Assembly (NCBI GenBank): GCA_016213825.1
Contig: JACQZP010000027.1
Span: 1 to 64,000 of the forward strand
Source: Acetobacterium woodii
Lineage (GTDB): Bacteria > Bacillota > Clostridia > Eubacteriales > Eubacteriaceae
Reading direction: 5' to 3'
Length of the DNA stretch: 64,000 nt
Shown here: positions 45,752-63,003 of the stretch, piece after piece
How positions within the stretch are numbered: position 1 is the first letter of the stretch
How the letters are laid out: every line of letters starts with the position of its first letter
Position numbers and translations under genes: made by a program
The notes under the pieces: generated by a model
The model's input: only the letters and a program-made list of their open reading frames with translations
Database searches by the model: none
What the model was told of the DNA's origin: nothing

Positions 45752-46093
45752 TTATTTTATAAAGCGATCAATGGCTTTATTAAGTTCTACGAGCGCTTGT
45801 TCGTCACCTTCTTTAACGGCGCTGACAATACAATTCTCAATATGATCCTGTAGAATTATTTTGCCAGTATTGTTAATGGCTGCCTTAACCGCCGATAACT
45901 GAATCAGCACTTCTGAACAATCCCGACCGGACTCCACCATTTTCTTTACCGATTCCAGATGGCCAATCGCTTTAGACAAGCGATTCAATACCGCTTTTGA
46001 ATGGCTATGGGAATGATCCTGATGCTCGTGGTCACCCCGATTTATTTCGATCGCATGCGCATCGGCGTGCGAGTGATTCTTAATTTGGCTCAT
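45752..46093 (-). CDS. CsoR/RcnR family metal-sensing repressor with His-rich N-terminus
   Basis: 113 residues. All-helical DUF156 fold from about residue 33. The metal-site residues are C59, H84 and C88, the Cys-His-Cys set of copper-sensing CsoR rather than the Cys-His-His of the nickel/cobalt sensor RcnR. The first 32 residues hold about nine His, which could bind Ni or Co. It stands directly behind a cobalamin riboswitch, which suits cobalt better than copper, so its metal is uncertain. AGGAG precedes the ATG. Confidence 0.9.
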   Translation of the reverse strand: MSQIKNHSHADAHAIEINRGDHEHQDHSHSHSKAVLNRLSKAIGHLESVKKMVESGRDCSEVLIQLSAVKAAINNTGKIILQDHIENCIVSAVKEGDEQALVELNKAIDRFIK

Positions 46094-46249: not shown

Positions 46250-46445
46250 ACAACGAATTGTATTACAAGCAGGTCTTCTGGCTTGCGGATCATCATCTTG
46301 ACTTCGCCTTCCCGGTGTCATAGACACCAGTGACATCATGAAATCAGACTTCTCGCTTACAGCTGCGGGACAGCATGGGATTTCAACCCATTTTCCTATT
46401 CTCTGTTGAATTTCGATTCAACAGCACTCGTAACAATTTATTTAA
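46250..46445 (-). ncRNA. Cobalamin (AdoCbl) riboswitch
   Basis: The minus strand carries, in order, AATGGGTTGAAATCCCATGCTGTCCCGCAGCTGTAAGC, the CACTGGTGTCTATGACACCGGGAAGGCG block and the B12 box GCCAGAAGACCTGCTTGT. These are the conserved core and B12 box of the class. It precedes the CsoR-type repressor and the M14 hydrolase, giving control by corrinoid level. Confidence 0.93.
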
Positions 46446-46466
46446 TTAAGAATTACTATGCCACAG

Positions 46467-47852: not shown

Positions 47853-47913
47853 AATGACTTCTCCTCTCATTTCAAACCCTTCCAGACATCAATTTCACGT
47901 TGAGATAAAAAAA

Positions 47914-48842: not shown

Positions 48843-48960
48843 TGCAAATAAAAAAAGCCACGCCGAAATAAACCGATCTTCTGATCAGATTAAGTCTTCA
48901 TGACTTTGTTGTTTACCTGTATTATTTTTTTATTTTCTCATAATGGCTTGTTAATGTCAA
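48843..48960 (-). promoter_or_regulatory. AUGAA-hairpin leader L2, before methyltransferase 1
   Basis: Minus-strand TTGACA (48955-48960), 17 nt, GAAAAT (48932-48937), then AAGUC-AUGAA-GACUU (48892-48906), a 5-bp hairpin with a 5-nt loop. Its 5' side, AAGUCAUG, can instead pair with CGUGGCUU to form a terminator followed by seven T residues, ending 70 bp before the methyltransferase start. Confidence 0.6.
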
Positions 48961-49197
48961 CCCCTGCGATGTGGTTTCAACTATTTGACATACCAGAGAA
49001 AAAATCAACCAGACAGGTAACAAACAAGGTGCTGGCACCAACTGCCGCAGCCGCTTCTTTGCCTACAAAATTACCCAGATAAATCAACGGTATGATACAA
49101 TTGCTGGATCAGGCTGGTTGCCCAGCAAAGGCAATGCGAAAAACAACAATTTTTTCCATATAACGCCTTTTGTTAAAGTTAAACTGCTATTCTTCAT
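48961..49197 (-). pseudogene. Decayed MATE efflux transporter, N-terminal fragment
   Basis: A ribosome site AAAGGGG and ATG (49195-49197) start a frame beginning M-K-N-S-S-L-T-L-T-K-G-V-I-W, then L-L-F-F-A-L-P-L-L-G-N. Q-Q-L-Y-H-T-V-D follows in a second frame and G-N-F-V-G-K-E-A-A-A-A-V-G-A-S-T in a third. These pieces, in order, are the MATE family N-terminus (usually I-V-G-N-F-V-G-K-E-A-L-A-A-V-G-A-S). Two frameshifts and loss of over 350 residues make it non-functional. It sits directly behind leader L1. Confidence 0.8.
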
Positions 49198-49216
49198 TTT
49201 ACCCCTTTCATTCATC

Positions 49217-49349
49217 AAAAAAAGCCATAAAAATTGCTTTCACAACCTTCATGGCTTTTTTTATTGGCTTCATGTCAATAAATTTGTTATCTTCTTCGTT
49301 TTTAGATCTAATCGATTGAATTATACTTTAAATCCATTTAATTTGTCAA
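49217..49349 (-). promoter_or_regulatory. AUGAA-hairpin leader L1, before the MATE remnant
   Basis: Promoter TTGACA (49344-49349), 18 nt, TATAAT (49320-49325) on the minus strand. The transcript has TTTATTG...CAATAAA (hairpin), then AGCC-AUGAA-GGUU (49244-49256). AAAAAAGCCAU can instead pair with AUGGCUUUUUU to form a terminator. The stretch from the -10 box to AAGGTT is strongly similar to leader L3. Confidence 0.7.
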
Positions 49350-49390
49350 ATAAAACAGCTAAATACAAATTTCACTAACATATATCTTTT

Positions 49391-49409
49391 AAAAATGATA
49401 ATCATTTTC
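49391..49409. promoter_or_regulatory. Fur-box-like palindrome
   Basis: AAAAATGATAATCATTTTC matches 16 of 19 positions of the classical Fur box, with the perfect core AATGAT-A-ATCATT. It lies 42 bp upstream of the L1 -35 box and 53 bp after the methyltransferase 2 stop. The AT-rich dyad could be chance, and no promoter is clearly overlapped. Confidence 0.5.
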
Positions 49410-49461
49410 AGCTCTGCAATCGATAAACTTAATCATTGGACTTCTAGGATAATTTACACGT

Positions 49462-50235
49462 TCAAATTTTTGTTCCGATAATAATGGTCCGCTTGTAAGG
49501 ATTTTTCAAACGATATCCCAGACTCATTATCTCCTTTTCAGCTTTTTCAACAGCTTTTGCATCCCGAACTTCAATGTCTAAGCCTGACTTTTTTGCCATG
49601 TCAACTAATTGCCGGGCGTTTTCATCATGCATCATGGGTAACTTTGAGATGAGCTCATCGTCATAATTCCCAACATTTTTAAAGGCATTTTTTCCTTCTT
49701 TTACACTAACTATACATGTTCCGATAAAAATTTTTGTTTTATTGCTAAAACTGTCATGAAACCAATCACCATCGATAATAATCAAATGCCCTCCGGGTTT
49801 TAAAACCCGAACCCATTCCGAAATTGCTTTCTTTGGGTGAGGCAGTGTCCAAACTAGATGGCGGTTAATAACCACATCGTAGCGATTATCTGGCTCATCC
49901 AGATTTTCGGCATCACCAATTTCGAAAATGATATCTTTAAAACCGTTCTCCTGAGCCTTTAATTTTGCCCGACTCAGCATTCCCTCGGACAAATCAATCC
50001 CCTTGCATTGATGACCCAGCTCGCTCAGAAGCAACGAAAGAAACCCGGTTCCAGCTCCAACATCAAGAATTTCACTGGGTTTAACAGGAATCATACTATC
50101 CAGTAGTTTTAGCCATTCCTGTTTTTCCTTTTCACTTTTTAAGCCATGGGCATAGTCATTATCATAACTGTTCCCGCATTTATCCCAAATCGTACTGATC
50201 TTATTTTTAACTTCTAAACTATTTTCTATACTCAT
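49462..50235 (-). CDS. Class I SAM-dependent methyltransferase 2, importer-linked
   Basis: 257 residues. Motif I (I-L-D-V-G-A-G-T-G-F, 56-65), then I-D-L-S-E-G-M-L, and the family stretch N-R-H-L-V-W-T-L-P-H-P-K-K-A-I-S-E-W-V-R followed by L-K-P-G-G. It is the last gene of importer system 2, 105 bp after the ATPase, with AGGAAA before the ATG. Co-transcription with an importer suggests it modifies the imported compound or its ligand. Substrate unknown. Confidence 0.9.
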   Translation of the reverse strand: MSIENSLEVKNKISTIWDKCGNSYDNDYAHGLKSEKEKQEWLKLLDSMIPVKPSEILDVGAGTGFLSLLLSELGHQCKGIDLSEGMLSRAKLKAQENGFKDIIFEIGDAENLDEPDNRYDVVINRHLVWTLPHPKKAISEWVRVLKPGGHLIIIDGDWFHDSFSNKTKIFIGTCIVSVKEGKNAFKNVGNYDDELISKLPMMHDENARQLVDMAKKSGLDIEVRDAKAVEKAEKEIMSLGYRLKNPYKRTIIIGTKI

Positions 50236-50340
50236 ATTTTCCTCACATCTATAAGATATTTTTTTCTCGATACTATTAGATAAACAGTAAAAAATTGTCT
50301 ATCGAACCCAGTAATTAGAGACTTCTAGCCCGTTTCTTTT

Positions 50341-51111
50341 TTAAATATAAAGCGCTGACTCCAACAATTGCTTTGTATAGTGATGTTGCGGATTTTTAAA
50401 TATTTCTTCGGTCTTTCCAATTTCGACAATTTTGCCATTTTTCATTACGGCCACCCGGTCACAAATCGATTGAATGACTTCCAGATCATGTGAAATGTAA
50501 AGCATGGTGATATTAAACTCATCATGAATTTCTTTTAGTAATTGTAAAATCTGGGCCTGAACCGACACATCCAACATCGATGTTGGTTCATCACAAATAA
50601 TAAATTTGGGCTGCAGGCATAATGCCCGGGTGATTGATAGCCGCTGTGCCTGACCACCGCTTAGTTCGTGTGGATATTTTTTTAACTGATCTTTTGTTAA
50701 TCCTACCCGTTCGATTAGATGTTCAACCATTGCCTTTTCTTCTGTTTTATTTTTTGCCAACTTATATAGCCTAATGGGTTCAGCACAGGCAAAGTAAATA
50801 TTTCGACGCGGGTTGAAAGTCATCTGGGGATGCTGAAAAACCATTTGTATTTCTTTTCTTAACAGATACCATTGACGATTGTTAATTTTTGTTAAATCAC
50901 GGTTATTATAAAATACCCCACCGGCAGATGGTTTGAGCAGTCCCATTACGATTTTCGAAACCGTCGTTTTTCCAGAACCACTACCACCTACCAGACCAAA
51001 AATCTCACCTTCTTTAATCTCGAAACTTACATCATCGACAGCATCCGTCACATTGTTTCCTAAAAACCCGGAATAGTATTTTTTACTTAATCCTTTAACT
51101 TGTAGCTGCAT
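50341..51111 (-). CDS. Nik/Opp-type ABC importer ATPase (DppF-like), system 2
   Basis: 256 residues with intact Walker A (G-G-S-G-S-G-K-T-T), signature L-S-G-G-Q, Walker B I-I-C-D-E-P and H-loop S-H-D. The start at 51111 lies inside the end of the preceding ATPase gene; an AGTGAG ribosome site fits it better than a GTG 15 nt upstream. Confidence 0.9.
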   Translation of the reverse strand: MQLQVKGLSKKYYSGFLGNNVTDAVDDVSFEIKEGEIFGLVGGSGSGKTTVSKIVMGLLKPSAGGVFYNNRDLTKINNRQWYLLRKEIQMVFQHPQMTFNPRRNIYFACAEPIRLYKLAKNKTEEKAMVEHLIERVGLTKDQLKKYPHELSGGQAQRLSITRALCLQPKFIICDEPTSMLDVSVQAQILQLLKEIHDEFNITMLYISHDLEVIQSICDRVAVMKNGKIVEIGKTEEIFKNPQHHYTKQLLESALYI

Positions 51112-52087
51112 GTTTAAATAACTCACTTACATTCAAATTTTTATAGATACTGCATTTTGCAAAATGACCTTCCGCTATTTCAACAATCTCTGGTTCGTTG
51201 TTGATACAAATGTCGCTGGTGCATTCGCAGCGATCACTGAAACGGCAACCTTTAGGCAGATCCTGAAAAGATGGCATAAAGCCATTCATCACCTTAAAAC
51301 CTTTTGAGGGCATGGATGCGATCAAACCTTTGGTATAGGGATGAAGGGGTTGATTAATGACTGAATCGGTAGGCCCAATTTCCACAACTTCCCCACAATA
51401 CATCACCGCAATGCGATCGGCCACATATTTAGCCGCGGCAATATCATGGGTAATAAACAGCATCGCACACTTCATTTCATTTTTCAATTCACAAAATACA
51501 TCCACAACGTCTTTACGCAATGCCCAATCCACTGCTTTTGTTGGTTCATCCACAATCAGCAATTCCGGATGGGTAATCACGCCCATAGCAATTAATACCC
51601 GTTGACACATCCCACCACTGAGTTCACATGGGTAGTTCTGATAAAAATCTTCACCCCGGGGAAGTCCCAAACTTGCAAAAATTTCATGAACTTTTGCTAC
51701 TGTTTTCTTTTTGTCATCTTCGCTACTATTGTTTTCAAGAACACATTCGGCAACCTGGTTCCCCACATGCATGAGTGGATTCAGCGAGGTACTGGGACTC
51801 TGGGGAACCGATGCGATCGCTTGACCTCTTAGTTGACGGAATTCTTGCTCGTTCATTTTTGTAATATCCTTTCCTTTAAAAAGAATATCACCGGTTACAA
51901 TGGCATTGTCTGGAAGCAAATGTAGAATGGCACTGCCTGTTACTGATTTACCACAGCCAGTTTCTCCGATCACTGCTAACACTTCATTTTTATTAATCTC
52001 CAAGGATACATTATTTAAAATATGGACTTGCTTATCGTCAACTGTAAAGCTCACATTTAAATCTTTTATTTCTAAAAGAACGCTCAT
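51095..52087 (-). CDS. Nik/Opp-type ABC importer ATPase (DppD-like), system 2
   Basis: 330 residues. Walker A G-E-T-G-C-G-K-S-V, signature L-S-G-G-M-C-Q-R, Walker B L-I-V-D-E-P, H-loop T-H-D. After residue 265 it has the C-x6-C-x3-C type cysteine set of the oligopeptide-transporter C-terminal domain (C-R-F-S-D-R-C-E-C), which binds an iron-sulfur cluster in characterised DppD/F proteins. GGAGG precedes the ATG. Confidence 0.9.
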   Translation of the reverse strand: MSVLLEIKDLNVSFTVDDKQVHILNNVSLEINKNEVLAVIGETGCGKSVTGSAILHLLPDNAIVTGDILFKGKDITKMNEQEFRQLRGQAIASVPQSPSTSLNPLMHVGNQVAECVLENNSSEDDKKKTVAKVHEIFASLGLPRGEDFYQNYPCELSGGMCQRVLIAMGVITHPELLIVDEPTKAVDWALRKDVVDVFCELKNEMKCAMLFITHDIAAAKYVADRIAVMYCGEVVEIGPTDSVINQPLHPYTKGLIASMPSKGFKVMNGFMPSFQDLPKGCRFSDRCECTSDICINNEPEIVEIAEGHFAKCSIYKNLNVSELFKHAATS

Positions 52088-52097
52088 TTAAAACCTC

Positions 52098-53021
52098 CTA
52101 TTCTGTTTTAACTGAATCACACATCCGCGGATCAAGTAAATCTCTGACCCCATCACCCAACATATTAAAGGTCAGCGCCGAAGCTGCAATTGCCAATCCT
52201 GGAAAAATTGCCATCCACGGAGCATAACGCATGTACTCTTTGCCATCGCTTATCATCGCACCCCAGTCCGGTGATGGCGGTTGAGCACCAAGCCCCAAAA
52301 AGCTGAGTGAAGCACAGTATAAAATAATACTGCCAATATTAAGCGATGCTAAAATTAGTATTTTTGAAACAATATTGGGTAAAAAATATTTGAACATAAT
52401 TTGCAAACTATTATTGCCAATGGCTTTCGCCGCTTCAATATATTCGGCATTTTTCAAAAGAATGGCTTCTCCCCGGGAAACCCGAGCATAACTGGTCCAT
52501 TGGATACAACAAATGGCAATTACCAGGTTGATCGCCCCGGTACCCAAAACAGTGGAAATGGCCAGCGCAAATATAATCGTCGGAAAAGCCAGCAGGACGT
52601 CGACAATGCGCATGAAAATCATATCAACCTTTCCACCCCAAAAACCCGAAATCATCCCAGCAAGCGTGCCAATGCAGGCACTGAAAATGACAACCATAAA
52701 GGCGGTGCTCAACGAAATTCGAGATCCTTCGATAATCCGGCTCAGAACATCTCGTCCCATGTTGTCGGTTCCAAAAATATGAGCTGCGGATGGTGGAATG
52801 AATTTAAGGGCCAGATCCATTTTCGTGGGATCATAAGGTTCCAGTACCGGAGCGAAGATTGCCACAAGTATGATAAAAGTTGCGAAAATAATACCCAGAG
52901 TAAGCATGCTGTTTTTTTGATTAAAACTTCGCCCAAGAACTTTTAAATACTTGGGAATTCCAGTCAGTTTTGGTCGCGGATAGTTTAAACTTTCTGTAAC
53001 AGAGACCGGCTTTTCCATCAT
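52098..53021 (-). CDS. Nik/Opp-type ABC permease (DppC-like), system 2
   Basis: 307 residues. First helix about 38-62, then the I-F-G-T-D-N-M-G-R-D segment and five further helices ending in L-G-D-G-V-R-D-L-L-D-P. The start overlaps the DppB-like stop (TAATG), with GGAGG 9 nt upstream. Confidence 0.92.
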   Translation of the reverse strand: MMEKPVSVTESLNYPRPKLTGIPKYLKVLGRSFNQKNSMLTLGIIFATFIILVAIFAPVLEPYDPTKMDLALKFIPPSAAHIFGTDNMGRDVLSRIIEGSRISLSTAFMVVIFSACIGTLAGMISGFWGGKVDMIFMRIVDVLLAFPTIIFALAISTVLGTGAINLVIAICCIQWTSYARVSRGEAILLKNAEYIEAAKAIGNNSLQIMFKYFLPNIVSKILILASLNIGSIILYCASLSFLGLGAQPPSPDWGAMISDGKEYMRYAPWMAIFPGLAIAASALTFNMLGDGVRDLLDPRMCDSVKTE

Positions 53022-53968
53022 TAGTTGTCACCTCCTGAATATTTAATTCGTGGATCAATACAAGAATACGTAATATCGACAATGAGATTAACAATAGCAT
53101 AGCCAAAGGCAATAATTAAAACACAACCTTCAATCATGGGAAGGTCTTTGGTATTGATGGAATCAATTAAGAGGCCGCCAATTCCTGGCCAGGCAAAGAT
53201 ATTTTCGATAATAACAGCACCTCCAATAATGTGACCAATCTGCAGACCAATGACTGTAATAATCGGCGGAATGGCATTTCTTAATGCATGCCCAAAAATA
53301 ACCTGATTGTCTTCCAACCCCTTTGCCCGGGCAACAGTGATATAGTCCTGTCCTAAAACATCAAGCATGCTGGACCGGAGCATTCTTGTTGTCACTGCGG
53401 TCATCCCAATGGACAAGGTAACAGCGGGCAAGATGATACTTGTAAAACCGGCCATACCACTGACTGGTAGCACTTTTAACTGAATCGAAAAGATAATGAT
53501 CAAGAGCAGTGCAATCCAAAAAGATGGAAATGATGAAAGTAGCAGTGTGGAAAACCGACTAAAATGATCAATGGGCCGATTGTGATTCAAGGCACTGAGA
53601 ATTCCAAACGGTATTGAAATAATAAGTGATATCAAAAATGCACTAAATCCTAGAATTAGCGTATTCGGTAATCTGATTTTCAGGATATCAATCACGGGTT
53701 TGTTATATTTATAGGATGTGCCCAGTTCGCCGGTTACGACATTTCCTAACCAGTCCGTATATTGGGTGAAAACCGGTCTTTTCAGGTCAAATTTTGCTCT
53801 CACGTTTTCAAGTGTCTCTGGTGAAACCGCATCTTCCCCATAAACAGATACAATTATGGCATTCGCCGTATCGCCTGGAGTAACATGGACTGTAAAAAAG
53901 GTTAAGGTCGCTACCATCCATAAAACAATAAACACGATGAGGATTCGTTTAATAATATATTTTATCAT
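53021..53968 (-). CDS. Nik/Opp-type ABC permease (DppB-like), system 2
   Basis: 315 residues, six helices, with the OppB-type N-terminus (I-I-K-R-I-L-I-V) and P-G-D-T-A-N. It follows the binding-protein gene across 263 bp that hold a terminator-like hairpin and repeat element E, so its expression relative to that gene is probably reduced. Confidence 0.92.
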   Translation of the reverse strand: MIKYIIKRILIVFIVLWMVATLTFFTVHVTPGDTANAIIVSVYGEDAVSPETLENVRAKFDLKRPVFTQYTDWLGNVVTGELGTSYKYNKPVIDILKIRLPNTLILGFSAFLISLIISIPFGILSALNHNRPIDHFSRFSTLLLSSFPSFWIALLLIIIFSIQLKVLPVSGMAGFTSIILPAVTLSIGMTAVTTRMLRSSMLDVLGQDYITVARAKGLEDNQVIFGHALRNAIPPIITVIGLQIGHIIGGAVIIENIFAWPGIGGLLIDSINTKDLPMIEGCVLIIAFGYAIVNLIVDITYSCIDPRIKYSGGDN

Positions 53969-54014
53969 TCTGTCTCCTATTCATTTAACTTTTAAGTAAT
54001 TGCGAAATAAAAAA

Positions 54015-54155
54015 ACATCGAACAATGGTTGCTTTGGGTGCAGTTTCCACAAACAATTTCGTAACGTGTAGGCGAACAGTTCACTGAACTGTCCGCCGTA
54101 CAGTGTAGAAATTGTTTCGTGCGAAACTGGACGCAAAGCTCACGGTACTTTCGCA
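54015..54155. repeat. Intergenic inverted-repeat element, copy E
   Basis: The most symmetric copy. Outer CTTTGgGTGCAGTTTC pairs with GAAACTGgACgCAAAG, inner AAACAATTTC with GAAATTGTTT, and the central hairpin is ACAGTTC-ACT-GAACTGT. Flanking GCGAAA (about 54002) and TTTCGC (about 54149) extend it further. It lies between the binding-protein and first permease genes of system 2. Confidence 0.9.
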
Positions 54156-54190
54156 ATCGCCTAATTTAACTTCAAAGAATAAATGAAACT

Positions 54191-54223
54191 AAATCCGTAC
54201 AGTCCTTAAGACTGCACGGATTT
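54191..54223 (-). terminator. Hairpin after the system 2 binding-protein gene
   Basis: AAATCCGT-a-CAGTC pairs with GACTG-c-ACGGATTT, 8 bp after the stop. On the minus strand only a broken T-run follows, so it may be a partial terminator or an mRNA-stabilising hairpin that raises binding-protein levels. Confidence 0.6.
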
Positions 54224-54231
54224 TAAAAATG

Positions 54232-55803
54232 TTATTTTAAACTTGTTTCATTCGGCACAATGAAGTCATGGACAGCAGCGCTGTAGGAAAAGTTTTCAAC
54301 ATCATCTGAGAGCACAAATACGGCCCCATAATTTGCAATTGTGTATACTGCCACATCATTTTGTGCCAATACTTGAGCCTGTTTACTTAATGTGTATTTT
54401 TCTTCCATATTACTGGTTGCTTTGCAAGCATCTACCAGTTTATCCAGCTCTGGGTTGCTGTAATTAATTTGTTTTGCATTACTACTTCCAGAATGATAGT
54501 AGGTACTTAAATAATAAGAAGCTGAAGGGACATAGCCTGTCGCGGCTGAACTAAGCACCATATCAAAATTTCCCGACTTCTGCGCTTCGGTAAAAGCATT
54601 GCCATCTAAGACTTGAACATTTGCTTCAATGCCCAGATTGGCAAAATATCCGGCAACTGCCTGGACAATCAGTGAATTACCCGGTCGTCTTGAGGACGTG
54701 ATAATATTCATCGAAATTTTTTGACCATTATAATCTCTAAAACCATCGCCATCCGTATCTTTAACGCCTGCCGCATCTAATAAAGAACCTGCTTTCTGGG
54801 CATCATATTCATAGGTATCGACATTTGTATTTGCCCATGGCATGGTTTCTAAGAATATCCCTTTCGGTACCGATCCAACCCCAAGCAGTAAATCATTAAC
54901 AATATCTTTTTTATTAACCGCATAGATTAACGCTTTTCTGACATTGACGTCTTTTAAATAGTCCTTATTTAAATTATAACTAAAGAAATAGGTTCGGGCG
55001 GTATTGAATTTTTCAACATTGACCCCATCCTTGTTTGAAAGCGTTTCAAGATCACTAAACGGTACATCGGTCGCAATATCAACTTCGCCATTCTGTGCCG
55101 AAAGAGAACGGGTACTGGAATCGGATAGACTTAAAACCACCCGTCTGGTTACATTCGAATCAACTTTTTGCCAATATTTATCATAGGGCACACATTCAAA
55201 TTTACCAGAAGAAACATCAAAGCTATCCTGTTTAAAATACCCGGTTCCCACAGCCGTCACAAATTCGCCTTTATCATTTACGGATGATTTGGCAACAATG
55301 GCAGTTCCAACGTTGGTCAATGCTTCTGGCAGATCCCCAGTATTAACAGAGGTATTAAATTGAACGGTATAATCATCAATAACATCAACTGAAGCAATCC
55401 CCGTTGTTTTTGCCAATGATGTATTCTCTACTAAACTACGTTCAATACACCATTTGACCGCCTCAGCATTGAACTTTGTACCATCGTGAAAAGTTACATC
55501 ATCACGTAATTTAAACACCCAGGTTGTCTCACCGGTCCGTTCCCATTCTTTAGCCAGGGAAGGGTGCAAAATAAAATCAGAGTCAACCGATACCAGTGTT
55601 TCAATGACCCCGGCAACCTCTTTTAACATCGTCGCACCATCGCCATTGCTGACATCCAGAGTCGTAACCGTGGATGGAAATGCAATGGTAAGAACCTTTT
55701 CGCCATCAGCTGTTTTAGCATTAGCTCCTGAACAACCGGCAAATAAGGTTAAACCTAACCCCATCACCATTAACAACAAAAATCCTTTAACTTTTAATTT
55801 CAA
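54232..55803 (-). CDS. Nik/Opp-type solute-binding lipoprotein, system 2
   Basis: 523 residues, family 5 binding protein with lipobox L-F-A-G-C near residue 24 and NikA-like landmarks (L-A-K-E-W, F-K-L-R-D-D-V-x-F-H-D-G-x-x-F, G-T-G-Y-F, D-T-D-G-D-G-F-R). The start is a TTG at 55803 with AGGAG 8 nt upstream; a longer frame to 55953 is coding only because it runs through repeat element F. Ligand unknown; peptide, nickel or metal-chelate are all possible. Confidence 0.9.
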   Translation of the reverse strand: MKLKVKGFLLLMVMGLGLTLFAGCSGANAKTADGEKVLTIAFPSTVTTLDVSNGDGATMLKEVAGVIETLVSVDSDFILHPSLAKEWERTGETTWVFKLRDDVTFHDGTKFNAEAVKWCIERSLVENTSLAKTTGIASVDVIDDYTVQFNTSVNTGDLPEALTNVGTAIVAKSSVNDKGEFVTAVGTGYFKQDSFDVSSGKFECVPYDKYWQKVDSNVTRRVVLSLSDSSTRSLSAQNGEVDIATDVPFSDLETLSNKDGVNVEKFNTARTYFFSYNLNKDYLKDVNVRKALIYAVNKKDIVNDLLLGVGSVPKGIFLETMPWANTNVDTYEYDAQKAGSLLDAAGVKDTDGDGFRDYNGQKISMNIITSSRRPGNSLIVQAVAGYFANLGIEANVQVLDGNAFTEAQKSGNFDMVLSSAATGYVPSASYYLSTYYHSGSSNAKQINYSNPELDKLVDACKATSNMEEKYTLSKQAQVLAQNDVAVYTIANYGAVFVLSDDVENFSYSAAVHDFIVPNETSLK

Positions 55804-55840
55804 ATCCTTTTCTCCTCTTATAAATAGTATTTTTAGGCGT

Positions 55841-55982
55841 TTGCGAAACGTATACACATCGAACAATGGTTGCTTTACGTTCAGTTTCCACAAACAATTT
55901 CGTAACGTGTAGGCGAACAGTGTAGAAATTGTTTCGTGTGAAGCGGGGCCCAAAGCTCACGGCACTTTCGCAATTACCTAAT
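55841..55982. repeat. Intergenic inverted-repeat element, copy F, lacking the central hairpin
   Basis: Same outer arms as copy E (identical over GAACAATGGTTGCTTT and TTTCCACAAACAATTTCGTAAC), but the jump from GGCGAACAG to TGTAGAAATT removes about 24 nt of central hairpin present in E. It lies just upstream of the system 2 binding-protein start. GCGAAA and TTTCGC again flank the unit. Confidence 0.85.
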
Positions 55983-56058
55983 AGTATTTTTTAATCCTTC
56001 AACATACCGAAATCTTTAGCAGCTTCTTGCATCAGGACTTACACGATTGATCATCTGT

Positions 56059-56163
56059 CTAAAAATATAAGCTGTCGCCTTGTGTGTAACAGTTGAGCAT
56101 AAAAAGTCCAAGCACTAAACCAAGTCCAATTCTAACGAAATTCTTTATTTTTAAGTGACTCAT
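56059..56163 (-). CDS. Possible 34-residue membrane peptide
   Basis: ATG at 56163 with AAAGG 6 nt upstream. The product is basic at the N-terminus (M-S-H-L-K-I-K-N), has one hydrophobic helix (about 10-25, R-I-G-L-G-L-V-L-G-L-F-M-L) and ends S-L-Y-F; a Cys at 25 gives an M-L-N-C context that is only lipobox-like. It lies between the operon 3 terminator and the system 2 binding-protein gene. It may be a small transporter accessory, or a chance frame; no homologue is known to me. Confidence 0.45.
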   Translation of the reverse strand: MSHLKIKNFVRIGLGLVLGLFMLNCYTQGDSLYF

Positions 56164-56189
56164 AATAATCCTTTCCCTAAAAAATTTGC

Positions 56190-56252
56190 AACAAAAAAAG
56201 CCAATAAAACACAACTCCTTTCAAGGAATAACTGCCTTATTGGCTTATTTAT
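56190..56252 (-). terminator. Terminator with overlapping small hairpin (L5)
   Basis: On the minus strand AGCCAATAA pairs with TTATTGGCT followed by seven T residues; it ends the system 3 operon. The 5' arm can alternatively fold as GCC-AAUAA-GGC (56234-56244), the same layout as the AUGAA leaders but with a different loop. Confidence 0.75.
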
Positions 56253-56298
56253 TAATGCTGATTGACCATCAAAGATTGGACGTATTTTTTCTAATCGA

Positions 56299-57219
56299 TT
56301 AATATGATTTCTGAAGTACAAAACTTTGGAAATTATTTAAAACACTATGTTTTGGTGATAATTCAACCATTTCAGCTTCCTCATTCGCGCTTTTTACATC
56401 ATAATCAATCAATACTTTACTCCGTTCATAAATCGGATCGGGAACTGGTACTGCCGATAACAGTGACTGGGTGTAGGGGTGAGCAGGGTGAGAAAATATT
56501 TCTTTGGTTGTTCCAATCTCCATAATCCGGCCATTAAGCATCACCGCAACTTTATCACAGATGAACTTAATAATTGACAGGTCATGGGCAATTAATAGAA
56601 ACGAAAAACCATGTTCGCGCTGAAGTTTCTGAAAAAGCGTGATGATTTGAGCCTGAATCGAAACATCCAGTGATGCAATTGGTTCATCAGCAATAATTAA
56701 ATCCGGGCTGGTACTTAAACACCTGGCAATGGCGACGCGCTGTCGCTGTCCACCAGATATTTCGACTGGGTATTTATTTTTATAAGTATGATCAAGTCCC
56801 ACTTCCAGTAGCAATGAATCCAGTTTTTGTTGAATTTTATTTTTATCCTTCATCAATTTATTCACAATAATCGGTTCCAAAATAATTTCTGCTACGGTCA
56901 TTCTTGGATTAAGCGCCGCTGCCGAGTCCTGAAAAATAATCTGCATATTATTATGAATATCTTCTTTATTTTGGTGATACACTTTTTTGTCCGTAATCTT
57001 GTTGCCTTTAAAATAAACCTCGCCCTGCGTTGCCGGATAAATTCCCATAATAGACCGGGCAACCGTTGATTTTCCGGAACCGGTTTCCCCCACCAAACCG
57101 ACCACTTCACCTTTTCTAATATTAAAACTGACCCCATTGACGGCTTTTATTGTCAAATCTTTATTGATCTGAAAATGCTGGTGCAATTGTGAAACACTTA
57201 GAATCATTTCTGCGTTCAT
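56299..57219 (-). CDS. Nik/Opp-type ABC importer ATPase (DppF-like), system 3
   Basis: 306 residues. Walker A G-E-T-G-S-G-K-S-T, signature I-S-G-G-Q-R-Q-R, Walker B I-I-A-D-E-P, H-loop A-H-D. The C-terminal P-Y-T-Q-S-L-L-S-A-V-P segment is that of oligopeptide importers. It starts 2 bp after the DppD-like stop. Confidence 0.9.
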   Translation of the reverse strand: MNAEMILSVSQLHQHFQINKDLTIKAVNGVSFNIRKGEVVGLVGETGSGKSTVARSIMGIYPATQGEVYFKGNKITDKKVYHQNKEDIHNNMQIIFQDSAAALNPRMTVAEIILEPIIVNKLMKDKNKIQQKLDSLLLEVGLDHTYKNKYPVEISGGQRQRVAIARCLSTSPDLIIADEPIASLDVSIQAQIITLFQKLQREHGFSFLLIAHDLSIIKFICDKVAVMLNGRIMEIGTTKEIFSHPAHPYTQSLLSAVPVPDPIYERSKVLIDYDVKSANEEAEMVELSPKHSVLNNFQSFVLQKSY

Positions 57220-57221
57220 CT

Positions 57222-58238
57222 TTATTGATCCATCCTTTTTAATAAGATTGGCCGTTTTATCTGTGGGGATTTTTCATCAAGCAACCAGGTTGCTGCATAA
57301 TGCGTGGGAGAAATTTCATACATCGGTGGCATTTCTGCGTAATCAATCGCTAAGGCAAATTTGTTTCGAACCGCAAAGGCGTCTCCTGGCGGTGGGTTTA
57401 GCATCACTGGTGGCATGCCTGGAATCGTAGCCAAACACGCTCCTGCTTTTGTCAGTGATGGCAGGGCCGCCATTAATCCCCATACATAGGGATGCCGGGG
57501 GTCATAAAAAACGTCCGCAGCGGTACCAATTTCGACAATTTTACCAGCATACATCACCGCTACACGATCAGCAATCTTGGCGACAACGCCCAGATCATGG
57601 GAAATAAAAACAATCGAAATCCCGGTCTTATCACGAATATCCAGCAGCAGATTAAGAATCTTTGCCTGAACGGTAACATCAAGAGCGGTTGTCGCTTCAT
57701 CCGCAAACAGAATTTTCGGATTAGAAGCTAAAGCAATGGCCAATACACAACGCTGTCGCATGCCACCGGAAAAAAAATGGGGCTGCAGGGCAAACATTTC
57801 CTCCGGTTGGTTAATCCCAACCAGATTCAGCATTTCCACGCCGCGCTTTTTTGCCTCTTCTTTGCTGATCTTGTTATGTTTCATAATTGATTCTGTGATT
57901 TGTTTTCCAATCGGAATCGTTGGGTTAAGCGTCGTCATGGGATCCTGAAAAACCATGGACAATACGCCGCCTCTTAATTTTCGCATTTCTTTTTCTTTAT
58001 AGTCGGTAATGTCTTCTCCATCAACAATGATTCGGCCTTGTTTGATTCGTGATGTTTTTGGAAGCAGTTTTAGAACCGATTGGCTCATCACCGTTTTGCC
58101 ACAGCCGGATTCTCCGACGATGGCTAATATTTCGCCTTTATTTAATGTCAGGCTAACATCTCTAACTGCTTCAACTTCGCCGTTTTTAGTATCAAAACTG
58201 ACTGATAAATTTTTTAATTGTAGCATCGGTTCGGCCAT
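57222..58238 (-). CDS. Nik/Opp-type ABC importer ATPase (DppD-like), system 3
   Basis: 338 residues with intact Walker A (G-E-S-G-C-G-K-T-V), signature F-S-G-G-M-R-Q-R, Walker B and H-loop. The C-terminal oligopeptide domain has P-G-M-P-P-x-x-L-N-P-P-P-G-D-A-F but then N-K-F-A-L-A in place of the usual Cys-containing segment, so the iron-sulfur cysteines seen in system 2 are missing. Start at 58238 with GGGAGG upstream. Confidence 0.9.
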   Translation of the reverse strand: MAEPMLQLKNLSVSFDTKNGEVEAVRDVSLTLNKGEILAIVGESGCGKTVMSQSVLKLLPKTSRIKQGRIIVDGEDITDYKEKEMRKLRGGVLSMVFQDPMTTLNPTIPIGKQITESIMKHNKISKEEAKKRGVEMLNLVGINQPEEMFALQPHFFSGGMRQRCVLAIALASNPKILFADEATTALDVTVQAKILNLLLDIRDKTGISIVFISHDLGVVAKIADRVAVMYAGKIVEIGTAADVFYDPRHPYVWGLMAALPSLTKAGACLATIPGMPPVMLNPPPGDAFAVRNKFALAIDYAEMPPMYEISPTHYAATWLLDEKSPQIKRPILLKRMDQ

Positions 58239-58261
58239 CAATCGCCCTCCCTTTGATATAG

Positions 58262-58299
58262 ATCGATGTCGGATGCTTCGATAAACATCCGACATCGAT
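58262..58299 (-). promoter_or_regulatory. Perfect intercistronic hairpin in system 3
   Basis: ATCGATGTCGGATG (58262-58275) and its exact complement (58286-58299) form a 14-bp stem with a 10-nt loop, between the binding-protein stop and the DppD-like start. No T-run follows. Such hairpins commonly protect the upstream binding-protein mRNA. Confidence 0.75.
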
Positions 58300-58331
58300 A
58301 GATTTTTACAGCATGTTAATTTTGACTTGAC

Positions 58332-59915
58332 TTATTTAGAAAGAGTCCAGTCTTCAATATTCCACATCACGCCAACGGCATGATGTCCAAGAACTCTTTC
58401 AGTACTAAGCCCCTTAAGACCACTGATGCCGACATAATTTCCATCCAGGTAAGCAATTAAAACAGACGCTGGCTGTTGCGAGAAAGCCATTTCAAATTGA
58501 CCATACAGGTCTTTTCTGACATTGGCATCTTTTTCATGTCTTGCCTGGGTTAATAAATCATCCACAACCGGGTTTGAATACTTCATGGTATTGGCACTGC
58601 CATCAGTTGTAAATTGTGAATACAATGCATCTGGATCAAATTCAACAGCATAGCCTGATAAGAAACCGTTGTATCCGGCTTTCCAATCAAATTTCGTTAC
58701 CAATACAATTTCCATATCAACGCCAGCTTCTTTGAGCTGTTTTGAAACGATATTGGCAATGTCAATTCGCTCTTCTTCATAATCACGCACCTGGATAGTG
58801 AAGTGGAATTTTTCCCCATTTCGTTCATAAATACCATCAGCACCCTTGGTCCAGCCTAACGCCTGCATTTCCTGAGCAAATTTATTCAGATCATATTTAT
58901 AAATATCTGCGGCTGTATTTCCACCAAACGCATTTAACTGAATAGGGCTGTAAGCGGTACTTCCCTCGTTATTCAGGACGCTTTTAACAACTGCATCTTT
59001 GTCAATCGCATAATTGAGTACCCCAACCGAATCTTTGTTTTTGATCCAGAAATCAGTTCTGAAATCCACTGACACGGCTCGATAGTCGGCGGTTGTGAAA
59101 TCAACGTTTTGATAACCGTCTTTGCCCCGGAATTTTTCGGCATAATTGGCATTCAACCAGGCCAGATCGGCTTCCCCGGATTCCAACATCAAAGCTTTTG
59201 TGTTTTCCACAGCCACGGTTTTGTAAACGACGCGGTCAATATTGGGAACCTTACCATAATAATCGCTATTCTTTTCCAGGGTAATGGTTCCCCCAGTTTT
59301 ATCCCATTCAACAAATTTATAGCGACCGGTTCCTACTGGCGCCTGATTAAATGAAGCGGTGGTCAGATCCTGGCCATCCAGCAAATGTTTAGGCACAATG
59401 CCAATTGTAAAGTTATCCAGCATAGCGGCATTAAATTGTGAAAGTGTAATCGCAACGGTATTATCATCGGCTGCCGTCACACTGGCGATATCTTTATAAT
59501 TACTTAAGACACTTGCTGACAAGGTCGTGTCTTTTGTCAGTTTATCATAAGTAAAAACCACATCCTGGGCGGTGAATGGCTTTCCATCATGCCATTTCAC
59601 CCCTTTTCTTAATTTAAAGTTATAGGTCATTGATCCTTCGTCATAGGTATAGCTTTCCGCCAAATCTAAAATCGGTTTACCTTTGGCATCGTATTTCATC
59701 AAACCCGAGAAGATAATACCCGACAATTCACTTTTACTAACGATTGGATTGATCGATTCATCGGCCTCACCGGCATAAACCAGCGTATTCGACAAATCTG
59801 ATCCGTCGGCCGATTTCTTATCAGCCGAGGCTGATGAACAACCGGTGAAACTCACCACGGTACCTAAACAAATCACCCCTACCAACAATTTGGCAATCTT
59901 TTTCTTGACACACAT
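58332..59915 (-). CDS. Nik/Opp-type solute-binding lipoprotein, system 3
   Basis: 527 residues, family 5, lipobox S-F-T-G-C near residue 26 followed by a Ser-rich segment. Landmarks: F-K-L-R-K-G-V-K-W-H-D-G-K-P-F and G-T-G-R-Y. Its sequence is more DppA/OppA-like than the system 1 and 2 proteins, lacking the D-T-D-G-D-G insertion. GGAG lies rather far (13 nt) from the ATG. Confidence 0.9.
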   Translation of the reverse strand: MCVKKKIAKLLVGVICLGTVVSFTGCSSASADKKSADGSDLSNTLVYAGEADESINPIVSKSELSGIIFSGLMKYDAKGKPILDLAESYTYDEGSMTYNFKLRKGVKWHDGKPFTAQDVVFTYDKLTKDTTLSASVLSNYKDIASVTAADDNTVAITLSQFNAAMLDNFTIGIVPKHLLDGQDLTTASFNQAPVGTGRYKFVEWDKTGGTITLEKNSDYYGKVPNIDRVVYKTVAVENTKALMLESGEADLAWLNANYAEKFRGKDGYQNVDFTTADYRAVSVDFRTDFWIKNKDSVGVLNYAIDKDAVVKSVLNNEGSTAYSPIQLNAFGGNTAADIYKYDLNKFAQEMQALGWTKGADGIYERNGEKFHFTIQVRDYEEERIDIANIVSKQLKEAGVDMEIVLVTKFDWKAGYNGFLSGYAVEFDPDALYSQFTTDGSANTMKYSNPVVDDLLTQARHEKDANVRKDLYGQFEMAFSQQPASVLIAYLDGNYVGISGLKGLSTERVLGHHAVGVMWNIEDWTLSK

Positions 59916-59963
59916 AAACTTTTCTTTTCTCCTTCAACATTTTATATAAACGGTGCTCTTTAA

Positions 59964-60869
59964 TTAGAGATAACTCTCCCGCTTATTTGTTTCTTTTCTG
60001 AAATAATAGGCAATATTGGTAATACATACCAGGGTTGTAATCAGAAATACCCCAGGAAAGATAATCACCCACCAGGTGTTTGATAAAAGTGCCTTGTTGG
60101 CCAGGGACAGCATACTCCCCCAGGAGACCACATCAACCGGCAAACCTAATCCTAAAAAACTGAGGGTAGATTCCATCGACATGCTCAAACCAATACTTGA
60201 AACGACCACAAACATAATCGTCGACACAAAATTAGGGATCAGATGCTTTCTCATGATATGGAAAAAGCCGCCCCCCATCGATTTTGCTGCTAGTACATAT
60301 TCACTGCTACGAATCTGCCGCACTTCACTTCTGACAATTCGCGCCAGACCACACCACCCGGTAACACCAATTACAAATGATATCTTTAGAATATTCTGTG
60401 ATCCCATTACTGAGGTCAATAATAAAATCAGCAGCAGCGTCGGAATGCTGTTGATCAACTCAGGAATCCGCATCATGATGGCATCTGTTTTTCCATTGGC
60501 GGTTCCGCTGATGCAACCATAAACTACACCAATCACAGTAATAATGGCCATCCCCAGTAAGCCGATTAAAATGGATACCCGACCGCCATACCAGATCATC
60601 GAATAAATATCTCTACCCAGCGAATCGGTTCCAAAATAGAATTCTGATCCCGGAGGTTCATTAAGATTTTGAAGATAAAAGCTGGTGGGATCATGATTGT
60701 ATACCTGTTCGGCAAAAACGCAACCCAGAACAATAATGCTGAGAATGATAATTGAGAGAATCGGTTTGCCTTTCAACCTTTCCAGAAAGGAAATCTTTTT
60801 TTCCTCTGTTTCATAGGTTTTATAATCAGAACCGACTACAACGAACTGGTCTGCGAAGTTTCTTTCCAT
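59964..60869 (-). CDS. Nik/Opp-type ABC permease (DppC-like), system 3
   Basis: 301 residues. Cytoplasmic N-terminus of about 32 residues, first helix about 35-53, then F-G-T-D-S-L-G-R-D and five helices. It overlaps the DppB-like gene by 34 nt; GGAGG precedes the ATG by 7 nt. Confidence 0.92.
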   Translation of the reverse strand: MERNFADQFVVVGSDYKTYETEEKKISFLERLKGKPILSIIILSIIVLGCVFAEQVYNHDPTSFYLQNLNEPPGSEFYFGTDSLGRDIYSMIWYGGRVSILIGLLGMAIITVIGVVYGCISGTANGKTDAIMMRIPELINSIPTLLLILLLTSVMGSQNILKISFVIGVTGWCGLARIVRSEVRQIRSSEYVLAAKSMGGGFFHIMRKHLIPNFVSTIMFVVVSSIGLSMSMESTLSFLGLGLPVDVVSWGSMLSLANKALLSNTWWVIIFPGVFLITTLVCITNIAYYFRKETNKRESYL

Positions 60870-61855
60870 GCCGACACCTCCGTTAATTTCATTCTTGGAT
60901 CAATCGCCTCATTGACAAACTGTGCGATAATACTGCTGGATACCACCATCACGCCGGTGATCATAACAATGAGCATAAGTAAGTTGTAATCATGGTACTT
61001 GGCACTGGTAACGGATAGGGCACCAATCCCCGGATAATTAAACACGGCTTCCGCAATAAAGGTACCGCTTAATACATGGGGAATGGAAATCGCCATGATA
61101 CTAACAATCGTCGGGGCCACATTTCGAAAACAATGTTTTAAAACGATTTCAGATTTTGTACACCCTTTTGATTTAGCCAGCAGTACATATTCTTTGCGAA
61201 TTTCATCCAGTAACTTGTTTCGTATCATATAGGCGTAATACCACAAATGGCTGAGGATCATTACCGTCAACGGTAAAATCATATGTTGAATTCGATTCAG
61301 TAGATCATTTGATTTACCGATATCATAAGCCCCACTGCTGGGAAGCCAACCCAGATTCACGCTGAAAACCAGTACCAGAACAACCCCCAGCCAGAAGGAC
61401 GGAATATAATAAGCCGCCGTTCCCACCTTACAGATAATCCGGTCAATCCAAGTGTCTTCATGCATTGCACAGAATAATGCCAAAATTATTGCCAGAGCAA
61501 AGACGAGAACATAAGCAACACCACCGAGAATTAGGGTATTCCCAATTAGTGGTGTAATCACATCCAATGCCGGCATTTTGTATTTTAATGACAATCCAAA
61601 ATCGCCTTGCGCTGCATTGGCGATCCATTTAACATATTGAAGCGCAATGGGACCATCCAATCCTAACCGCGCTCTTGCCGCATCCAATTCCGTCGAATTC
61701 ATCGACTCCACCGCGTCGCCATAATATGACTGGAGTGGGTCCCCAGGAGCTAAACGGGCAAAATAAAAAACTGCAACTGATAGAATCAACATCGAAATTA
61801 AAAACCACAAAATTCTTCTTAGTATTTTTTCAGCAAGCATTCCTTTTCTATTCAA
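60836..61855 (-). CDS. Nik/Opp-type ABC permease (DppB-like), system 3
   Basis: 339 residues, six helices, with A-R-L-A-P-G-D-P near residue 35 and the G-L-D-G-P-I-x-x-Q-Y family segment. I place the start at a TTG (61855) with GGAGG 7 nt upstream; a longer frame to 61960 would overlap the methyltransferase gene by 68 nt with no ribosome site. Confidence 0.88.
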   Translation of the reverse strand: MNRKGMLAEKILRRILWFLISMLILSVAVFYFARLAPGDPLQSYYGDAVESMNSTELDAARARLGLDGPIALQYVKWIANAAQGDFGLSLKYKMPALDVITPLIGNTLILGGVAYVLVFALAIILALFCAMHEDTWIDRIICKVGTAAYYIPSFWLGVVLVLVFSVNLGWLPSSGAYDIGKSNDLLNRIQHMILPLTVMILSHLWYYAYMIRNKLLDEIRKEYVLLAKSKGCTKSEIVLKHCFRNVAPTIVSIMAISIPHVLSGTFIAEAVFNYPGIGALSVTSAKYHDYNLLMLIVMITGVMVVSSSIIAQFVNEAIDPRMKLTEVSAWKETSQTSSL

Positions 61856-61892
61856 ATCTCGCCCTCCCCACTCTTTGAATTTAAAATGACTT

Positions 61893-62579
61893 TTATGAAA
61901 TGAATCGATTTTCTGCTTCATCCTTTGTTCCCATAAGCACAAACCAGGGATCATAATCATATCCTGGGCGAGTCAAACCAGAAAGTTTTTGAATCTGAAC
62001 ATCCACCAGCCCGTTTCTTTCCAATAAATCCCGAAGTTCTTCCATCCGCGCGCCTTTGATGGCTAATTGCTTATCCACTTCTTCATCTTCATAAATATTG
62101 ACCTTGCCAATATTTAACCCGACGCCTTCCTTCATGCGGTTAAAACACATCATTTTACCACCTGGCTTTAAAATGCGTAGCCATTCTTTTATTGCCATAT
62201 CCGGTTCAACCAGGGTCCAGATTAATCGTGAATTAATAATAAAATCAACCGTATTGTCCATAAATGGAAGTTCCAAAACACTACCCTCCATGAATATTGC
62301 ATCTGAACCGACGGTTTTGGCATGTTTGACTCCAAAATTCATCATTTCCTTTGATATATCAATCCCGATCGTTGAATGACCCAGTCTTGCCGTCATGTTT
62401 GCCAGAAACCCAGTTCCTGTTCCCAGATCCAGAACATTTCTGTTTTTATCAGATCCTAAAAGACATTCCAAAGCCTCCATCCAGGCTTGTAAATCTTCAG
62501 TATCATGATCTGCATCAAATGAATCGGACCGTTTGTCCCAATACGCTTCAATTTTTTTTACCACACTAATTTTTTCCAT
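61893..62579 (-). CDS. Class I SAM-dependent methyltransferase 3, importer-linked
   Basis: 228 residues. N-terminal A-Y-W-D-K-R-S-x-S-F, motif I V-L-D-L-G-T-G-T-G-F, I-D-I-S-K-E-M, and the shared N-S-R-L-I-W-T-L-V-E-P-D-M-A-I-K-E-W followed by L-K-P-G-G. It is the first gene of the system 3 importer operon, whereas methyltransferase 2 is last in its operon. Start at the second of two adjacent ATGs (GGGG, 6 nt). Its leader region holds L3 and L4. Confidence 0.9.
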   Translation of the reverse strand: MEKISVVKKIEAYWDKRSDSFDADHDTEDLQAWMEALECLLGSDKNRNVLDLGTGTGFLANMTARLGHSTIGIDISKEMMNFGVKHAKTVGSDAIFMEGSVLELPFMDNTVDFIINSRLIWTLVEPDMAIKEWLRILKPGGKMMCFNRMKEGVGLNIGKVNIYEDEEVDKQLAIKGARMEELRDLLERNGLVDVQIQKLSGLTRPGYDYDPWFVLMGTKDEAENRFIS

Positions 62580-62602
62580 CATTTACCCCTTTCAAAAAAA
62601 CA

Positions 62603-62766
62603 AAAAACCATAAAAATTGAGTTCTATCTACGATAGAATCGTCAACCTTCATGGCTAAATTGATCAATATTTAAGAATCTGTTGCTTTTTAATCATATTC
62701 TTGCGCGCTTTGTATATAGCAGTATATACCTGTGGCTATATTATGTTATAACTATCAAAATGTCAA
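62603..62766 (-). promoter_or_regulatory. AUGAA-hairpin leader L4, before methyltransferase 3
   Basis: TTGACA (62761-62766), 17 nt, TAATAT (62738-62743) on the minus strand; then AGCC-AUGAA-GGUU (62644-62656), whose 5' arm GCCAU can pair with AUGGU before a long T-run. The terminator ends about 25 bp before the methyltransferase ribosome site. Confidence 0.62.
62712..62729. promoter_or_regulatory. Palindromic operator candidate at the L4 start site
   Basis: GTATATA-GCAG-TATATAC, a perfect 7-bp inverted repeat with a 4-nt gap, centred about 17 bp downstream of the L4 -10 box, where a repressor would block initiation or early elongation. The regulator is unknown. Confidence 0.5.
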
Positions 62767-62867
62767 TCATTATTTCTAATCGATGAGCAAACTCAATCTA
62801 CTTATACTTAATAACTATTGAGCGATACTCTTTTGTCTGGAAAAAATTTTTTATCTTAATAACAAAT

Positions 62868-63003
62868 AAAAAAAAACACGAAAATTAATCATAATTAACC
62901 TTCATGGTTTTTCCTATTGATTTTCAATCAATAAATTTGTTATCCTCTTCGTTTTTAGATCCAACCGAGATAAATTATACTCTAAATCCTCTCAAGTTGT
63001 CAA
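62868..63003 (-). promoter_or_regulatory. AUGAA-hairpin leader L3
   Basis: TTGACA (62998-63003), 18 nt, TATAAT (62974-62979), the same spacing as L1. The transcript shares GATCTAAAAACGAAGA then GATAACAAATTTATTGA with L1, then ATTGATT...AATCAAT (hairpin) and AACC-AUGAA-GGUU (62897-62909), followed by a weaker terminator with a nine-T run. The -35 box lies 3 bp after the PTS IIB stop. Confidence 0.7.

Follow-up and report, generated by a model that had tools for sequence, protein, structure and literature searches.

The targets of ANTAR proteins, as described in one report (PMC3369931), have six-nucleotide loops in which position 1 is A and position 4 is G, on a plan of two small hairpins of which one overlaps a terminator. 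Leaders that follow the same plan with similar spacing are present in Acetobacterium woodii (GenBank assembly GCA_016213825.1), within the first 64,000 nucleotides (nt) of contig JACQZP010000027.1, hereafter the window. Four minus-strand leaders, L1 to L4, each carry a small hairpin (P2) whose loop reads AUGAA and whose 5' arm is also the 5' arm of an intrinsic terminator. The reading we lean towards, with some reserve, is that they are default-off transcription attenuators of a nickel and cobalt acquisition regulon, opened by a trans-acting factor that binds the hairpins.

A leader family with conserved hairpin loops

Direct reading of the sequence confirmed the four leaders as the first-pass annotation had described them. 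The AUGAA loop is invariant among them on stems of AACC/GGUU (L3), AGCC/GGUU (L1 and L4) and AAGUC/GACUU (L2), and folding bears out the proposal that P2 and the terminator share their 5' arm in all four. Complete leaders fold at -21.0 to -24.5 kcal/mol, and RNAs that end before the terminator 3' arm at -5.7 to -10.9 kcal/mol, with P2 formed in every case. The two sequence blocks said to be common to L1 and L3 are present, as is their second hairpin (P1), with 16 nt between the P1 and P2 loops. A further hairpin, P3, is an addition to the earlier description (Table 1).

The test pattern CATGAAGRYTN{10,40}TTTTTT gave nine overlapping matches at four places in the window, where shuffled sequence would give 0.03, and in the 3.94-Mb genome it matched the same four places only (reversed control, 0); terminators of this genome therefore do not commonly take this form. 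The pattern is present in 17 of 19 genomes of the genus, and an exact-pattern scan of genome contigs returned at least 119 stretches with record titles spanning many phyla. Below, numbers such as L164 denote loci and G-numbers denote genomes, G000 being this one. A covariance model (R1) was built from an alignment (A2) of 40 leaders, the window's four included, which had been picked by eye for a terminator-like 3' arm; it matched in 30 of 40 family genomes (E<=0.1). Over 62 loci it gave 115 matches; removal of 24 judged to be antisense or two-way terminators left 91, or 88 unique members. A broader model (R2, from the 65 sequences of alignment A4) was trained on the family only, so that its distant matches are independent of training. 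It matched in 30 of 67 genomes of the order (E<=0.01), in 27 of 391 of the class (E<=0.001; 22 outside the family and five within) and in 33 of 398 of the phylum (E<=0.001), the sole family genome among them being this one. Thirty distant loci, chosen around such matches, yielded 56 R2 matches, or 50 members after six opposite-strand overlaps were dropped. A model of P2 and P3 alone, with the terminator excluded (R3), found 15 places in 0.53 Mb of distant loci (E<=0.1), all of them coinciding with R2 places. Within the window R3 recovered the five sites, two of which it had been trained on, at E 1.3e-4 to 0.097, together with a single weak, partial match. E-values from models of these kinds are rough. 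Homologous leaders upstream of similar genes were thus found in the genus, family, order, class and phylum searches, and on sequence grounds the element occurs here, in close relatives and, further afield, in a minority of Clostridia-type bacteria.

The weaker relative proposed at 56190-56252, with an AAUAA loop, also belongs here: R1, which was not trained on it, matches at 34.5 bits (E 0.0013 over 0.68 Mb, 0.0077 in the genome), and the same loop occurs at three other loci (L250, L252 and L237). A probable sixth member, with a weak E of 0.007, lies directly before cbiM at G000:C4:53898-53964 (L328:1399-1465, minus strand). Elements stand in tandem pairs twice in the window and once in L185. 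A second GCCATGAATGTT-type terminator hairpin, with no good P2, was seen upstream of the D-type element at L167:2679, L171:2696, L172:8093 and L184:2732.

P2 loops among the 88 family-level members read AUGAA in 64, GUGAA in 18, AAUAA in four, and UCGAA and AUGAG in one each; among the 50 distant members they read AUGAA in 31, ACGAA in 15, AUGGA in two, and ACGGA and AAGAA in one each, so that 128 of the 138 fit RYGAA. All four inner P2 pairs form in 74 of the 88 members, three in 10 and two in four. The stem measures 3-8 base pairs (bp) in 61 of the 65 A4 members and its closing pair is nearly always C-G. In longer members P3 follows P2 with a linker of 3-5 nt (39 of the 60 with a hairpin found) and a loop-to-loop spacing of 13-16 nt. 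Of the 52 P3 tetraloops detected in the 65 A4 members, 38 are NGNA (shuffled inner segments: mean 1.4, maximum 5 in 300 trials), as are 16 of the 32 detected in the 50 distant members (shuffles: mean 0.8, maximum 3). Short members of the L1/L3 type have no room for P3 and carry upstream P1, AUUGAY..RUCAAU or near it, with loops of AUGAA, GUGAA, UGAAA or CUGAAC and one UUAAG. An upstream hairpin was found in 28 of the 50 distant members, and its loop ends in GAA in 14 of these (mean 0.2, maximum 2 in 200 shuffles).

Covariation of the stem, claimed by the first-pass annotation, is supported on alignments A2, A6 and A9, though not on every measure. On A2, 98.8% of P2 cells are paired, against 93.5% in shuffles and at most 55.6% when the alignment is slid, with CG/UA/UG and GC/GU/AU as pair types; this set is biased, since the pattern used to pick it had already fixed some of the 3' side of P2. 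A9, the distant set selected without the pattern (56 rows, the six opposite-strand ones included), is 87.2% paired in P2, compared with 77.2% shuffled and at most 51.7% slid. The terminator on A2 is 94.8% paired (shuffled, 86.5%), and P2 with P3 on A6, an alignment with N padding in the linker, 94.7% (shuffled, 68.0%); P3 in A6 was chosen as the best hairpin, which makes its pairing statistics partly circular and leaves its loop letters unselected. Among the 88 members, loop column 19 is A in 88 and column 20 in 87, and their terminator partners are T 81/G 7 and T 78/G 7/C 3, respectively. A G as first loop base goes with C in the terminator partner column in 17 of the 88 rows, a matching change. 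The terminator partner of the loop varies, by way of G.U pairs and mismatches, but the loop itself does not, which suggests that a second constraint acts on it.

A DNA operator in place of the P2 hairpin was considered and rejected: what is fixed is the loop, whereas the arms change together and include G.U pairs. Separately, a DNA palindrome, ATACNNGTATATAC / GTATATAC, lies between the -10 box and P2 in B- and L4-type leaders (48908-48922, degenerate, and 62712-62730) and likewise upstream of P2 in L164, L165, L166, L168, L169, L182, L185 and L187; it resembles an operator for a GntR-like repressor.

Table 1. Positions of leader parts and downstream genes in the window, all on the minus strand (-).
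Feature	Position	Description	Basis
L1 promoter	49320..49349 (-)	TTGACA 49349-49344, 18-nt spacer, TATAAT 49325-49320	sequence
L1 P1	49263..49279 (-)	AUUGAC[AUGAA]GCCAAU, one A.C mismatch	sequence, fold
L1 P2	49244..49256 (-)	AGCC[AUGAA]GGUU	sequence, covariance model matches (in training set)
L1 terminator	49217..49260 (-)	5' arm common with P2	fold
L2 promoter	48932..48960 (-)	TTGACA 48960-48955, 17-nt spacer, GAAAAT 48937-48932	sequence
L2 P2	48892..48906 (-)	AAGUC[AUGAA]GACUU	sequence, R3 match (in training set)
L2 P3	48873..48888 (-)	CUGAUC[AGAA]GAUCGG	hairpin search, R3, fold
L2 terminator	48850..48907 (-)	5' arm common with P2	fold
L3 promoter	62974..63003 (-)	TTGACA 63003-62998, 18-nt spacer, TATAAT 62979-62974	sequence
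L3 P1	62916..62932 (-)	AUUGAU[UGAAA]AUCAAU	sequence, fold
L3 P2	62897..62909 (-)	AACC[AUGAA]GGUU	sequence, covariance model matches (in training set)
L3 terminator	62868..62915 (-)	5' arm common with P2	fold
L4 promoter	62738..62766 (-)	TTGACA 62766-62761, 17-nt spacer, TAATAT 62743-62738	sequence
L4 P2	62642..62658 (-)	UUAGCC[AUGAA]GGUUGA	sequence, covariance model
L4 P3	62622..62638 (-)	UUCUAUC[GUA]GAUAGAA	hairpin search
L4 terminator	62602..62657 (-)	5' arm common with P2	fold
Fifth site P2	56234..56244 (-)	GCC[AAUAA]GGC	sequence, R1
Fifth site P3	56214..56229 (-)	AUUCCU[UGAA]AGGAGU	hairpin search, R3
Fifth site terminator	56193..56246 (-)	5' arm common with P2	R1, fold
Methyltransferase gene behind L2	48016..48774 (-)	start MENILEKV; listed frame opens upstream at 48861
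MATE remnant start behind L1	49084..49197 (-)	frame stops after 37 codons	read by eye
Methyltransferase gene behind L4	61893..62582 (-)	nik/opp-type ABC importer genes follow, as far as 56299
NikA/OppA-type substrate-binding protein behind fifth site	54232..55953 (-)

Genes behind the leaders

Downstream genes were identified by family searches of representatives rather than of all members. They encode class I methyltransferases, NikB/NikC/NikA-Opp types, CbiM, MATE, DUF3842, ECF S components, FmdE and a CsoR-type metal repressor. A BtuF/IsdE-like binding protein scored below the NCBIfam cut-offs, and a NiCoT-like gene in L319/L338 was recognised by eye only. Longer MATE frames than the remnant in the window occur in L164, L180 and L183, with a MATE family match for the L164 frame. 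As judged from N-termini, around 41 of the 50 distant members stand ahead of probable metal or corrinoid genes. L336 is the most informative locus. Behind its element (10013-10078) come a lipoprotein gene, another small gene without a family match and CbiM/NikM (8040-8681); two genes read by eye as ECF partners come next, then DUF3842, FmdE, CooT with DUF4198 and finally HypA, HypB and a NiFe-hydrogenase small subunit. This gene content favours nickel rather than cobalt as the predicted metal. A Moco/W riboswitch lies between the CooT and HypA genes (L336:4221-4341), so HypA, HypB and the hydrogenase subunit may form a separate unit.

In three places, corresponding to three of the nine cobalamin aptamers in eight loci, the element lies 70-132 nt upstream of the aptamer on the same strand, and its signal is therefore probably not cobalamin itself. 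The window has a cobalamin riboswitch (46251-46446) upstream of a CsoR-like gene (45752-46093). CsoR-like genes have the hairpin element upstream in L166, L181 and L187, and in L187 element and cobalamin aptamer stand in tandem. A 467-residue protein encoded at 46467-47870 gives a weak, below-cut-off nSTAND3 match and recurs behind the same methyltransferase in several relatives. At L164:386-7248 and L170:1046-7850, a CobN-type chelatase, Mg-chelatase-like AAA subunits and an ABC-2-like exporter make up one operon behind the element (families tested in L164 only). In A. bakii, autotrophic growth is reported to bring strong down-regulation of a putative cobalt ABC transport cluster and of the 'lipid A' ABC transporter next to it (PMC6239172).

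Proposed mechanism and its alternatives

In the mechanism we propose, the nascent RNA would by default fold into the strong intrinsic terminator and leave the genes off, a direction suggested by the folding energies. A trans-acting factor would bind a pair, sometimes perhaps a trio, of the tiny hairpins as they emerge and so permit read-through. The pair would consist of P2, with its C-G-closed RYGAA loop, and a partner, either P3 with its NGNA tetraloop 13-16 nt downstream or the upstream P1 with a UGAA- or GAA-type loop; P2, held closed, would withhold its 5' arm from the terminator. Across the family, conservation is confined to hairpin loops at fixed spacing and to the terminator arm in common with P2, so the simplest reading appears to be a protein with two loops as its target, as in ANTAR antitermination (PMC3369931). 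The neighbouring genes suggest nickel or cobalt scarcity as the signal.

Several observations weigh against this interpretation. Both known factor families that were tested, ANTAR and HutP, fail as a general binder, HutP having no match in 12 of the 22 genomes tested, this one included. About nine of the 50 distant members stand ahead of genes that we could not link to metals. The matches set aside in the wide searches (24 of 115 and six of 56) were antisense or two-way, several matches are probably ordinary terminators, those in L289, L324 and L325 are likely plain terminators, and P2 has two bp or fewer in four of the 50 retained distant members. AUGAA is rewarded by the models, and CATGAAG belonged to the pattern that picked the first set, so some of the loop conservation is built in. 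Two of the five covariation measures on A2 do not rise above shuffles (double-change pairs, reached by 214 of 500 shuffles, and further pair types, by 482 of 500), nor does one of the five on A9 (double-change pairs, 450 of 500). In some A-type members the P1 loop does not resemble UGAA (UUAAG in L166), no P1 was seen in L177, and under the criteria used 18 of the 50 distant members gave no P3 and 22 no P1.

A direct riboswitch, in which the hairpin pair would itself bind Ni2+/Co2+ or a metal complex and block the terminator without protein, is a tentative alternative that we think unlikely but take seriously: neither regulator family tested supplied a general regulator gene, the motif is widespread in the class and phylum searches, and metal and corrinoid genes lie downstream. 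Across subtypes, however, only the small-hairpin loops and the terminator arm are conserved, and the partner hairpins are found on either side of P2, at distances that vary. B-type promoters moreover leave only about 20 nt between the predicted start site and P2, little room for an aptamer, and together with the narrow conservation this fits a hairpin-binding protein better. That the leaders do not switch at all, and are plain constitutive terminators multiplied by duplication, is in our view improbable. Such an origin would agree with the strong terminator folds of the leaders that were folded and with the two-way terminators among the matches, but a terminator needs neither the 3' arm of P2 nor the loop of P3, both of which are retained; the partner columns drift where the loop does not, the downstream genes are of one theme, and P2 itself covaries.

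Recognition by an ANTAR protein with a changed loop preference would agree with the plan of the leaders, and an ANTAR gene is present in 38 of the 40 family genomes, this one included. As a general mechanism it is largely refuted, and we give it very little weight. The loops have 5 nt (RYGAA) and 4 nt (NGNA) in place of hexaloops with A1 and G4, and no ANTAR match was obtained in nine of 21 element-bearing class genomes, among them the single-contig G183 and G354, and G206, which has a strong element. Element E-values are 3e-9 to 2.4e-4 in five of these (G183, G187, G206, G354 and G374), and the elements are weak in the others (G060, G134, G137 and G309; 4e-4 to 9e-4). ANTAR genes also occur in family genomes that lack the element. 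Of the two in this genome, the one at G000:C26 follows a glutamine-synthetase-like gene (by eye), and R3 had no match in two 10-kb stretches around these genes. The short leader peptide (M-K-V...) offered by the first-pass annotation fares worst and is scarcely credible. By that account the terminator would be controlled through translation of a short MK(V/T/A) peptide that starts at AUGAAG, and loop positions 1-3 do read AUG in 98 and GUG in 18 of the 138 members. The remaining 22 have no start codon (ACG, AAU, UCG or AAG), a Shine-Dalgarno-like 4-mer precedes only seven of the 116 that have one, peptide lengths scatter from three codons up, and loop and stems behave as RNA structure; for the family as a whole the ACGAA members (15 of the 50 distant ones) refute it.

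For the hairpin-binding factor itself, the best-linked protein is the small, uncharacterised DUF3842 (PF12953), present in all 33 chosen element genomes and in 12 of 27 chosen others (Fisher p 3e-7); both groups were hand-chosen from larger lists, not drawn at random, with smaller genomes commoner among the 27, which makes the co-occurrence a lead and not proof. CbiM, used as a control, is more weakly linked (24 of 33 against 13 of 27). A DUF3842 gene lies within 5 kb of an element in eight of the 33 genomes, where 0.33 would be expected on the assumption of uniform placement in 3-Mb genomes, and in one genome it lies directly behind the element (L331:1746-2180). Its AlphaFold model, a confident one (predicted local distance difference test score 89.8), aligned in a fold search with UbiX-like, FtsZ and dehydrogenase chains at template-modelling scores of about 0.4-0.5. 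We read the predicted fold as generic Rossmann-like; it gives no hint of RNA binding. DUF3842 could itself be the regulator, or it may only belong to the regulon as a metal-handling protein.

We regard as evenly balanced the wider proposal that these leaders represent a phylum-wide, undescribed RNA control of nickel and cobalt acquisition, in which a new kind of hairpin-binding antiterminator, with DUF3842 as the best-linked protein, recognises mini-hairpins in twos or threes that bear R-Y-GAA and N-G-N-A loops, or in which the hairpins themselves sense metal, giving regulation of nickel genes independent of NikR. If this is true, a common RNA attenuator before these genes could be the regulation they have so far lacked, and the element could serve as a marker for unknown metal importers and chaperones (methyltransferase, FmdE, ECF-S, DUF3842). 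In either form the finding points to an RNA-binding regulator or a riboswitch.

Comparison with described systems

The first-pass annotation had suggested an undescribed riboswitch or attenuator. The attenuator family stands, given its homologues, its covariation and the absence of an Rfam match; the riboswitch part is the less likely one. No Rfam 15 family reached its gathering score at the elements examined, which covered the window, 20 of the 23 class-level loci L268-L290 and 15 further loci, and at the loose limit of E<=10 two stretches of the window yielded nothing but matches far below the gathering scores of their families. We found no description of the element in the open-licence literature searched, nor of its putative type there, a transcription attenuator with a dual-hairpin antiterminator. 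The element may be an undescribed way of controlling trace-metal uptake.

With the ANTAR systems (EutV/NasR/AmiR) the element shares two small nearby hairpins with conserved loops, one of them over the 5' side of the terminator, and several transcription units per genome; it differs in its RYGAA/NGNA loops, in P2 stems of up to 8 bp, in its ANTAR-free hosts and in the genes concerned. The NiCo (czcD) riboswitch has the nickel and cobalt theme in common with the element, whereas the element has no Rfam match and no multi-helix junction that we could see, and stands before importers rather than exporters. The cobalamin riboswitch (RF00174) occurs in the same clusters and in three places in tandem with the element, but its aptamer is much larger and is found separately by Rfam, and the elements do not match RF00174. 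Repression of nik genes by NikR would control the same class of genes; NikR acts on DNA, and the element would act on RNA.

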